This document shows positions 2,964-9,149 of a DNA stretch of 64,000 bases, piece by piece. How positions within the stretch are numbered: position 1 is the first letter of the stretch; each line of letters opens with the position of its first letter. Source of the stretch: Metabacillus sp. B2-18 (GTDB taxonomy: Bacteria > Bacillota > Bacilli > Bacillales > Bacillaceae). The notes below the pieces were generated by a model. It made no database searches. It saw only the letters and a program-made list of their open reading frames with translations, and was not told the DNA's origin. Where the stretch lies: the NCBI RefSeq assembly GCF_021117275.1, contig NZ_CP088245.1, forward strand, positions 2,827,501 through 2,891,500, given 5' to 3'. Position numbers and translations under genes: made by a program.

Positions 2964-4163
2964 TTAGATTAAACGAGTTGTGACAATACCTTCAATTTGA
3001 GTGATTTTCTCTTCAAGTTGAGGGATAATGTCACCATTTACTTCGTTGTCAATATCAATCATTGTGTACGCATACTCACCACGGCTTCTGTTTACCATGT
3101 CTGCAATGTTCAGGTTATAGCTTGAAATAGCTTGAGTTATTTGGCCAACCATATTTGGCACGTTTTTGTGGAAAGTTGCTACACGACGTTTTCCTGTATA
3201 TGGAAGAGACGCATTCGGGAAGTTAACTGAATTACGAATGTTTCCTGTTTCTAAGAATTCCTTCACTTGACGTGCTGCCATAATCGCACAATTTTCCTCA
3301 GATTCTTTTGTAGATGCCCCTAGATGTGGAATTGGTACAACGTTTGTCATTTTTAATATGTTTTGATTAGGGAAGTCTGTTACATATTTACCTACTTTTC
3401 CACTTTCTAATGCGATCTTCATATCATCTTCATTCACTAACTCACCACGTGAGAAGTTCATAATATGAACACCTTGTTTCATGATGCTGAATGTTTCTTG
3501 ATTAAACATACCTCTTGTGTCGTTAGTTAGTGGAACGTGTACTGTAATATAGTCAGAGTTAGCATAAAGTTGCTCAAGGCTCATTGCACGTTGAACTTTA
3601 CGAGATAAATTCCAAGCAGTATCTACAGAAATGAATGGGTCAAATCCGATAACATCCATATCTAGTCCAAGAGCGTCATTAGCTACAAGCGCACCAATCG
3701 CACCTAAACCGATAACTCCTAGTGTTTTACCTTTAATCTCTTTCCCAACAAATTGTTTTTTGCCTGCCTCAACTAGCTTAGGAATTTGATCTCCTTCACC
3801 GTCTAATGTTTTCGTCCATTCAACACCTGCAAAAAGATTGCGTGAAGAAGCCATTAACGTTGTTAAAACCATTTCTTTTACTGCATTTGCATTTGCTCCA
3901 GGAGTATTGAATACAACAATACCTTGCTCTGTGCATTTTTCAACTGGAATATTGTTTACGCCCGCACCTGCACGTGCAATAGCTTTTAAGTTTTTTTCAA
4001 ATTCCATTGAATGCATGTTAAAGCTGCGAAGAACAATTGCATCAGGATTTTCACTATTATTGTCGATAGTGTAATTACCTTTGTTAAATACATTTAAACC
4101 AACTTCTGCAATGTTATTTAACGTTTTAATTGTCTTTACTTTTTCTAATGTTGTTGTACTCAT
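2964..4163 (-). CDS. serA: D-3-phosphoglycerate dehydrogenase (serine biosynthesis)
   Basis: 399 residues. It oxidises 3-phosphoglycerate to 3-phosphohydroxypyruvate with NAD, the first step of serine synthesis. The substrate domain spans residues 1-95, the Rossmann domain carries VIGLGAIGALV (about 150-160), Arg239 sits in FSRGELV, the catalytic His280 in PIPHLGAST, and a C-terminal ACT domain covers about 328-399. This is the short form without the intervening domain. The segment where the family often has the catalytic Glu reads DFPNQN, so that residue is not evident. The start ATG 4163 has GGAG 8 nt upstream; an upstream ATG (4199) lacks this. Expression is probably set by the ZTP riboswitch and terminator 110 nt upstream. 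Confidence 0.95.
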   Translation of the reverse strand: MSTTTLEKVKTIKTLNNIAEVGLNVFNKGNYTIDNNSENPDAIVLRSFNMHSMEFEKNLKAIARAGAGVNNIPVEKCTEQGIVVFNTPGANANAVKEMVLTTLMASSRNLFAGVEWTKTLDGEGDQIPKLVEAGKKQFVGKEIKGKTLGVIGLGAIGALVANDALGLDMDVIGFDPFISVDTAWNLSRKVQRAMSLEQLYANSDYITVHVPLTNDTRGMFNQETFSIMKQGVHIMNFSRGELVNEDDMKIALESGKVGKYVTDFPNQNILKMTNVVPIPHLGASTKESEENCAIMAARQVKEFLETGNIRNSVNFPNASLPYTGKRRVATFHKNVPNMVGQITQAISSYNLNIADMVNRSRGEYAYTMIDIDNEVNGDIIPQLEEKITQIEGIVTTRLI

Positions 4164-4274
4164 CTTTCGATCTCCTCTTTTCATCAGGTAAGTTTTCAAA
4201 TTTTATGAATATTTTCATTTTAATAGAATAATGGAATTATAACATAGTTTACTCGAATTATCCTCTCCTATTAA

Positions 4275-4309
4275 ACAGAAAAAGGCAAGGGAAGATTTCC
4301 CTTACCTTT
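4275..4309 (-). terminator. Riboswitch-linked intrinsic terminator in the serA leader
   Basis: On the minus strand AAAGGTAAGGGAA pairs with TTCCCTTGCCTTT around a 3-nt loop, followed by TTCTG. It begins directly after the conserved 3' end of the ZTP aptamer, the standard position of an expression platform, so ligand binding would be expected to prevent its formation. Confidence 0.88.
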
Positions 4310-4381
4310 GCCCAGGCGAACGGCTTCGACACTATGTGCTCCCTCACGGTTATCCGCGTTTCGCCAGTTACACATAGCCTT
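4309..4381 (-). promoter_or_regulatory. ZTP (pfl) riboswitch aptamer upstream of serA
   Basis: On the minus strand the conserved pfl-motif pieces are in order: P1 CTATGTG (4377-4371) pairing with CACATAG (4338-4332), the core GTAACTGGCG directly after P1, a small hairpin CGCGG-ATAA-CCGTG, then GGGAGC before the P1 closing strand, and the 3' element CGCCTGGGCA (4318-4309) whose CGCC can pair with the GGCG of the core to make the pseudoknot. The aptamer class binds ZTP/ZMP (AICAR nucleotides), which build up when 10-formyltetrahydrofolate is short. The family assignment rests on recognising the consensus; a covariance-model search would settle it. Confidence 0.87.
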
Positions 4382-4394
4382 TTGAATTAAATAC

Positions 4395-4422
4395 ATTTTA
4401 ACACAGTTGGCGTGAACTTCAA
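4395..4422 (-). promoter_or_regulatory. Sigma-A promoter for the riboswitch-serA transcript
   Basis: On the minus strand a -35 TTGAAG (4422-4417) and a -10 TAAAAT (4400-4395) are separated by 16 nt. The predicted start falls about 7 nt later, 8-10 nt before aptamer P1, which is the expected arrangement. Confidence 0.65.
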
Positions 4423-4632
4423 CAGTTATTTCAAGAATTTTCTTGTTTAAACTTTTGAGTACTATTTTCTGTTATTTCATACTAAATAATTAAACGTTTC
4501 CATAATAATGCCGTTATTTTCTACCCTTGTACAATTTTATAGATTAAATCATTTCCTGGGTAAGCGCATATACTGACTTATTTCTCCAAATATTTTAACA
4601 TGCTACAGCAAATAATCTTCTAGTAAAAATGA

Positions 4633-5520
4633 TCAAGATTTTGAGTCAGTAAAAATGTACTTTGCCGTTAGTTCCATCAATTTCTCAATCTGATGTTTAT
4701 CTTTGCTGAACGTTGATGAAGTTACTAGTCTATTTTTTTCGTCAAAGTATTTTCCGGTAACTGATTGTAACTCAGGAGATGTTGCTAAATATAAGTAAGT
4801 TTGGGCCATTTCATCTGGAGAGATGGAAAACTTACTTTTTACTGAATACATAAGTTTCATCAGTTGAGATAAATTTGGATACCGTTCAATATCTATTTTC
4901 ACATTGGTAACTCTTATACAATTCACTGTAATTTTTGTGTTCTTCAACTTATCGGAAAGCCAATATGTGTACATCACTTGAGCAAGTTTTGATTGATAAT
5001 ACGCTGTTTCAACTCGGAATTTCTCATTGGTAAATTCAGGATTAGAATAATTGATTTTTAAAAACGGGTGTAAAACTAATCCTTGTGAAGCAATTGTAAT
5101 AATTCGACCTTGTTCACTTTGTTTTAGTTTATCTAGTAATAATTCTGTCAACAAAACAGGTCCAATGTGGTTTGTTGCCCAAACAGTTTCGATGTTTTCA
5201 TCTGAATATTGAGGTGCTTTTCTACTAATATCAAAGTCAGCTGCATTATGAATAAGAACATCGATTTGGCTGTGATTAGATATTAATTCATTAACTGCAG
5301 ATCTAATACAACATTGAGAACTCATATCTAGTAGTAATAATTCCACAGAATCGCTATTACTTTTCTCCTTGATTTCTTCTAATGCAACCAAACCCCTTTT
5401 TTCATCTCTGCAACCGATAATAATTTTCAACCCATGTTTTGCTAGTTGAATGGCTGCAGCTTTTCCAATCCCCGAATTCCCACCAGTTATTAAGCATGTT
5501 TTGCTTGGCCATACGTTCAC
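4633..5520 (-). CDS. Short-chain dehydrogenase/reductase, retinol-dehydrogenase-like
   Basis: 295-residue NAD(P)-dependent oxidoreductase. The cofactor loop TGGNSGIGKA sits at residues 12-21, the IIGCRDEKRG stretch suggests NADP preference (Arg after strand 2), LIHNAAD (about 88-94) is the NNAG-equivalent, and the catalytic YYQSK pair is near residues 173-177. The best-known relatives are the WW-oxidoreductase/retinol dehydrogenase type. The gene is transcribed alone, with about 250 nt upstream of serA's leader on one side. The substrate is unknown. Confidence 0.88.
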   Translation of the reverse strand: MNVWPSKTCLITGGNSGIGKAAAIQLAKHGLKIIIGCRDEKRGLVALEEIKEKSNSDSVELLLLDMSSQCCIRSAVNELISNHSQIDVLIHNAADFDISRKAPQYSDENIETVWATNHIGPVLLTELLLDKLKQSEQGRIITIASQGLVLHPFLKINYSNPEFTNEKFRVETAYYQSKLAQVMYTYWLSDKLKNTKITVNCIRVTNVKIDIERYPNLSQLMKLMYSVKSKFSISPDEMAQTYLYLATSPELQSVTGKYFDEKNRLVTSSTFSKDKHQIEKLMELTAKYIFTDSKS

Positions 5521-8264: not shown

Positions 8265-8515
8265 AAAAGTGTGAGTGTGTTGACTTTTAGGTGCTATCTC
8301 TAGAATGGATTAAAGAGTATCTTTTATATAGTACTTGTAACTCGATTGAAAGACATGTTTTTTTCCTAATTTTAGCATATGTTGGTGAAGCAGATGTTAT
8401 TTTTCTTATTTTATTTAGGAAAAAATCCATTGTTGAGTTAATTAAAGCGAATTTATTTAGCCGAAATAAGGTAGTGGTGTTTTTGGAGACACATTCTGTT
8501 TTAATGGCCGGTTTA

Positions 8516-9149
8516 CTGTCCCGATTATCCTTTTATCGAGACACACCATGATTGCCTCAACTGTTTTCTGTCCCCATTCCTCATGTATCAAGACACATCT
8601 TGCTTGCTTCTCATGTTTTCTGTCCCAATTCCTCATGTATCGAGACACATCTTACCTGTTTTTCACAGTTTCTGTCCCGATTCCTCATGTATCGAGACAC
8701 ATCTTGCTTGCTTCTCATGTTTTCTGTCCCGATTCCCGATGTATCGAGACACATCTTGCTTGTTTCTCACAGTTTCTGTCCCGATTCCCGTTGTATCGAG
8801 ACACATCTTGCTTGTTTCTCACAGTTTCTGTCCCGATTCCCGTTGTATCGAGACACATCTTGCTTGCTTCTCATGTTTTCTGTCCCGATTCCTCATGTAT
8901 CGAGACACATCTTGCTTGCTTCTCACAGTTTCTGTCCCGATTCCTCATGTATCGAGACACATCTTGCTTGTTTCTCACAGTTTCTGTCCCAATTCCTCAT
9001 GTATCGAGACACATCTTGCTTGTTTCTCACAGTTTCTGTCCCGATTCCTCATGTATCGAGACACATCATTCTTGCTTCAACCAGTTCCTGTCCCGATTCC
9101 CCTTTTATCGAGACTCGTCTTGCACTTCACCCTAATTCCTGTCCCGATG
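8516..9149. repeat. Tandem array of about 12 units of 52 nt, each with a 27-nt hairpin
   Basis: Units start at 8516, 8568, 8620, 8672, 8724, 8776, 8828, 8880, 8932, 8984, 9036 and 9088 (the last is 51 nt), with a partial unit at 9139 and a decayed one before 8516. Each unit has TGTCCCGAT, a 9-nt loop and ATCGAGACA, then a 25-nt pyrimidine-rich spacer related to CATCTTGCTTGTTTCTCAC. Because 52 is not a multiple of 3, all three plus frames stay open, giving spurious ORFs of 189-223 codons. The array lies between the HD-GYP gene terminator and the MFS promoter. Origin and function are unknown. The remaining 8265-8515 shows no gene. Confidence 0.95.

Follow-up and report, generated by a model that had tools for sequence, protein, structure and literature searches.

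What does the leader RNA in front of serA in Metabacillus sp. B2-18 sense, how would it control its gene, and how far is the arrangement kept among relatives? The DNA analysed, called the window below, is 64 kb long (64,000 nt). A first-pass annotation had read the leader as a ZTP aptamer with a promoter before it and a terminator directly after it, had suggested a covariance-model search and a scan of related Bacillaceae serA leaders as checks, and had regarded control of serA as an extension of the ZTP regulon to serine synthesis. From the analysis given here, the leader is predicted to be a ZMP/ZTP-sensing transcriptional ON switch, a reading to which we assign a probability of about 0.85.

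Organization of the serA leader and its gene

When the whole window was searched with Rfam covariance models, RF01750, the ZMP/ZTP riboswitch, was the sole family with a match above its gathering score. The match, at 4381-4303 of the minus strand (E 1.4e-6), scores 17.9 bits above the gathering cutoff and covers the full length of the model (positions 1-86 of 86). In the covariance-model alignment, the P1 and P2 stems and the ACTGGCG ... GGGAGC junction are present, and the P3 hairpin CGCCTGGGC and the pseudoknot GGCG/CGCC are found as well. The element is a complete, genuine aptamer of the ZMP/ZTP class, as the first-pass annotation had claimed; the interval given there does span promoter, aptamer and terminator, and the strand, which it had left out, is minus. 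The ligand of the ZTP riboswitch was reportedly identified by Kim et al. in 2015. An RF01750 search of the genome found no second ZTP aptamer elsewhere, and Rfam scans of the window and of the surroundings of the genome's serC gave neither a glycine riboswitch (RF00504) nor a T-box above cutoff. Along the minus strand, the order is promoter-like site, aptamer, terminator, an AT-rich leader of ~110 nt, Shine-Dalgarno sequence, a gene of 399 codons and a terminator-like hairpin, with the following features:

4422-4395, minus strand: sigma-70-like promoter, TTGAAG - 16 nt - (TG)TAAAAT, from consensus scan and leader alignment
4381-4303, minus strand: ZMP/ZTP riboswitch aptamer (RF01750, 56.9 bits against a cutoff of 39)
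4378-4370/4339-4331, minus strand: aptamer stem P1
4365-4362, minus strand: pseudoknot strand GGCG in the ACTGGCG core; partner strand CGCC at 4318-4315
4358-4354/4349-4345, minus strand: aptamer stem P2
4324-4322/4312-4310, minus strand: aptamer stem P3
4309-4281, minus strand: intrinsic terminator hairpin of 13 pairs with a loop of 3, starting 1 nt after P3; tail TTCTGTTTAA at 4280-4271
4213-4199, minus strand: possible CodY-like box AATATTCATAAAATT, weak, with 2 mismatches to the CodY consensus
4178-4172, minus strand: Shine-Dalgarno sequence AGAGGAG of serA, 8 nt 5' of the ATG, a position shared across the aligned leaders
4163-2964, minus strand: serA, 3-phosphoglycerate-dehydrogenase-type, 399 aa, ATG with Shine-Dalgarno sequence
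2946-2920, minus strand: terminator-like hairpin of 12 pairs after serA

The expected promoter was found as a promoter-like site. The consensus scan of 4100-4650 gave one such site, which is no more than shuffled sequence yields (mean 2.2), but in an alignment of 26 leaders, the window's among them, TTGAAG and TG..TA occupy a constant position in nearly every one. No second promoter between terminator and serA was detected in that scan. The terminator, too, lies where it had been placed: its hairpin abuts P3, has a predicted energy of -17.2 kcal/mol and is the one terminator-like stem in 4100-4650, where 0.1 would be expected in shuffles. The 12-pair hairpin behind serA suggests a single-gene transcript.

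Between terminator and gene, a DNA block that includes AATATTCATAAAATT is kept among Metabacillus serA leaders, and RNAalifold predicted no pairs in the distal part of nine Metabacillus-type leaders. This bears on an alternative in which the aptamer senses ZTP but mainly tunes expression, stronger control being exerted elsewhere, e.g. by a CodY-like site or another DNA element between terminator and serA. The box was scored against the CodY consensus. Among 60 leaders with a gap of 90 to 500 nt, a CodY-like match with 2 mismatches occurs in 12; when the window's leader is shuffled by mononucleotides, 0.65% of the shuffles reach that level. Against this, 35 of the 60 have no such match at up to 3 mismatches, matches at that threshold in the whole window are at chance (18 seen, 18.3 expected), and the short serA leaders of a second genus of the family lack the entire block. 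We therefore consider control mainly from elsewhere unlikely, if still deserving some weight.

In the region corresponding to window positions 4164-4272 in this and relatives' leaders, we also observed a purine-rich, Shine-Dalgarno-like motif just 3' of the terminator tract. It occurs in 43 of the 59 long serA leaders, where shuffles would give 2.0. This motif and the CodY-like box are leads at most. A conserved leader peptide was considered and rejected: a short ORF follows the motif in 18 of the 59 (a count made without control), and the window has none.

The name serA rests on several lines of evidence. Pfam assigns PF00389 and PF02826 to the product, both D-isomer 2-hydroxyacid dehydrogenase domains; among solved proteins, D-3-phosphoglycerate dehydrogenases come closest to it (E 5e-40, residues 53-300), and further structures, e.g. 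27ws and 8pin, align with residues 53-398. Four other matches to the product in the genome reach 26-30% identity over part of the length, and serC scores above cutoff 2.1 Mb away, with no Rfam match above cutoff in its surroundings. The best NCBIfam model is PGDH (TIGR01327), at 257.8 bits under its cutoff of 454; since this model has 525 positions and the protein 399 residues, the score lowers the certainty of the name and does not exclude the function. A 2-hydroxyacid dehydrogenase other than SerA, with the switch serving another pathway, would agree with the sub-cutoff score but is highly improbable given the solved relatives, the weak and partial other matches and the serC gene elsewhere. 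Judged by sequence, the gene at 4163-2964 is thus serA, as the first-pass annotation had named it, with predicted enzymology. The ORF list also gives a longer form with a TTG start.

Distribution and conservation of ZTP aptamers before serA

Whole-genome RNA scans of the family and of the order were run with the stricter Infernal filters, by which weak matches are lost. In the family, RF01750 matched in 26 of 80 genomes, and in each of these one match precedes serA. By genus, all 21 genomes of the one to which the window belongs gave a match, as did 4 of the 7 from the second genus and the only genome from a third; the 51 genomes of three more genera gave none. For 25 of the 26, the gene immediately 3' of the aptamer is a serA orthologue (79-100% identity); in the remaining genome the contig ends just past a serA-like start, and serA was judged from the start codon. 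The family scan yielded 31 ZTP sites in all, five of them not before a serA orthologue or serA-like start. Target calls, which leave out site G067:C16, gave a folD-like gene at one of them (L030, by eye) and a 3-hydroxyisobutyrate-dehydrogenase-like gene at another (L008). At L027 and L029, the aptamer stands before DJ-1-like genes (by eye).

The suggested scan of Bacillaceae serA leaders was carried out on named genomes, for which we used the best 80 of 147 loci, picked by SerA similarity and so favouring one clade; the nearest of them are mostly Metabacillus. Scanned with Rfam, 79 of these best 80 proved to carry the ZTP aptamer, and the one left (L048) starts at a contig edge, so that its leader is absent from the sequence. 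The aptamer is adjacent to serA in 78 of the 79 loci with a leader, its end lying 48-391 nt 5' of the gene. In Neobacillus sp. PS3-12 (L084), aptamer and serA are separated by an ORF (537-1613) whose product has RRXRR and HNH domains, a pair seen in IscB-type mobile elements. A glycine aptamer after the ZTP aptamer was seen in a single one of the 80 named loci, L078 (Cytobacillus citreus).

In an order-wide sample of 199 genomes, 73 carry a ZTP match, with 81 sites in all. SerA of this type (E 1e-120 or better) was found in 62 genomes, and for 30 of these 62 genes an aptamer lies 62-399 nt upstream on the same strand. All 30 ZTP-bearing genes are among the 35 that score best; the other five, all from family f41, belong to the same clade and lack the aptamer, and before the 27 lower-scoring genes none was found. 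The switch therefore follows one SerA clade. A scan of 16 (L170-L185) of the 32 serA leaders in the order sample that lack the ZTP aptamer gave no Rfam match above cutoff. Taken from these distributions, the ZTP-serA arrangement is old and widely conserved.

As target gene in the order sample we took the longest ORF starting within 700 nt; at L133 this rule gave a later gene, and a nearer DJ-1-like ORF was used instead. The most frequent target is folD (40 of 81 sites, called by blastp to one Pfam-checked member), and serA comes second with 30. The remaining sites include serC (3), amino-acid permeases (3), DJ-1-like genes (2), an IMP cyclohydrolase-like gene (1) and a methyltransferase (1), and a single site precedes a Na/alanine symporter gene at a distance of 355 nt. 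The serC genes closely preceded by an aptamer are L126 (G171), L130 (G137) and L132 (G199), all of family f14; L126 and L130 score over the TIGR01364 cutoff, and L132 was called by similarity. SerC is the next enzyme of serine synthesis, and a literature search for ZTP/pfl with serine genes found no report of ZTP before serC among the papers listed. The permease genes are at L125, L127 and L129, in three genomes. DJ-1/PfpI-like genes follow the aptamer in four genomes of the two scans, at L119 (Pfam) and at L133, L027 and L029 (by eye). The IMP cyclohydrolase-like gene (PF07826) follows the aptamer at L118; such an enzyme acts just after AICAR formylation.

For the RNA structure, pairs were counted in 75 leaders (74 distinct rows), comprising the window, 72 of the 79 ZTP-bearing named loci, and L002 and L004 from the family scan; of the named loci, L039, L040, L042, L049, L081, L086 and L093 were left out. 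The structure of aptamer, pseudoknot and terminator is paired in 98.9% of cells, compared with 97.1% in shuffles and 40-50% in slid structures. Eight pairs are changed on both sides (shuffled mean 3.3; none of 500 shuffles as high), four in P1, one in P2 and three in the terminator, counts that may be inflated by relatedness among rows. As the pseudoknot GGCG/CGCC is invariant in all 74 distinct rows and P3 nearly so (a one-sided change of a single pair in one row), covariation is silent for these two elements. The terminator arm follows the GGGC of P3 without a gap in the 79 ZTP-bearing named leaders (by eye), and its first base is paired in 73 of 74 rows.

Proposed switching mechanism

For the predicted ON switch, we propose the following course. 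Transcription would start a few bases past 4395, and the aptamer would be made. Without ZMP/ZTP, the 13-bp hairpin would form and polymerase would halt in the TTTTTCTGTTT tract ahead of serA. Upon shortage of 10-formyl-folate, ZMP/ZTP would rise, the P3/pseudoknot fold would be bound and the terminator would not be completed. Reading of serA would then raise the output of serine, which GlyA uses to make one-carbon units. Aptamer, terminator, conservation and gene come from this analysis; ligand and ON direction are taken from other ZTP switches. In the latter, control is transcriptional and ON, the ligand-stabilised aptamer and pseudoknot preventing the terminator (PMC7337938, PMC7484762).

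How the aptamer blocks the terminator in the serA leader we infer, as we do the physiology. RNAfold of aptamer plus terminator placed P3 and the terminator in one structure (-24.2 kcal/mol), so the two secondary structures are not mutually exclusive in the window's leader. The conserved TTTNTG tail could pair with the TGGG of P3; this extension of the terminator (TTTCTG with TGGG) is paired in 95.6% of cells, three of its four pairs being G-U or U-G, with no double change and one pair broken in 12 of 74 rows. Switching may be done by such a weak invasion of P3 or by steric crowding at the RNA exit. A pairing of the aptamer's GAGGGA with the terminator arm, considered by eye, was set aside, as the local hairpin of 13 bp is expected to prevail.

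The switches of Thermosinus carboxydivorans and Fusobacterium ulcerans resemble the window in that a pseudoknot aptamer is followed by a terminator and in being ON switches, as proposed here; nucleotides there switch between aptamer and terminator (PMC7337938, PMC7484762). The T. carboxydivorans terminator uses nucleotides of P3 (PMC7337938), whereas in the window the 5' terminator arm begins after P3 and just the G-U-rich extra pairs could reach it. In many of the 40 folD leaders, the predicted hairpin also starts at most 2 bases from GGGC (by eye), so that this abutment is not special to serA.

The compatibility of P3 and terminator in the predicted fold would also suit an OFF switch, in which the ligand favours the terminator and serA is shut at high ZTP; for a ZTP tandem upstream of moeA, OFF behaviour has been predicted (PMC9481103). 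Such a switch would, however, need an antiterminator without ligand, and RNAfold of aptamer plus terminator gives the terminator. ON is also favoured by the logic of the pathway and by what has been predicted in print for ZTP before the serine gene (PMC9481103), and we judge an OFF switch very improbable.

Relation to known systems and significance

A 2022 survey of Bacillus and Oceanobacillus, among others, described five tandems of a ZTP and a glycine riboswitch upstream of the gene with which the route from 3-phosphoglycerate to serine begins, and proposed ON logic for their ZTP component (PMC9481103). These tandems share with the window the aptamer class, the kind of target gene and the proposed ZTP logic; they differ by an extra downstream glycine riboswitch, giving an A AND NOT B gate, where the window has no such riboswitch above cutoff. 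The extension of the ZTP regulon to serine synthesis, put forward as new in the first-pass annotation, is therefore not new, having been published in tandem form. Beyond PMC9481103, our literature search found no report of ZTP before serA or serine genes among the papers listed. New here is how common the single-aptamer ZTP-serA form is.

In Paenibacillus polymyxa, a serine T-box precedes serA (PMC8002221). It is, like the window's element, a leader RNA with a terminator and serA as target, but it senses uncharged tRNA-Ser, whereas the window's aptamer belongs to the ZTP class (PMC8002221).

The link reported for five tandem leaders turns out to be widely conserved, with 30 of 81 sites in the order sample, and it follows one SerA clade. 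If the ligand response holds, the ZTP alarmone would regularly act on serine synthesis in Bacillaceae, which matters for antifolate responses and for strains used in serine production. We put forward, tentatively and with some doubt, a wider interpretation: the ZTP riboswitch regulon of this Metabacillus might consist of serA alone, folate shortage calling for more serine rather than for folate or purine enzymes; with serC and folD as targets in related lineages, serine supply might be one of the principal arms of the alarmone response across the order; and an amino-acid (CodY) input through the distal leader might form a second kind of gate that replaces the glycine riboswitch.

Apart from the leader, the window holds at 8511-9123 a tandem array with a 52-bp unit in 11.8 copies (86% matches). 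The long overlapping plus-strand ORFs at this place are probably products of the repeat.
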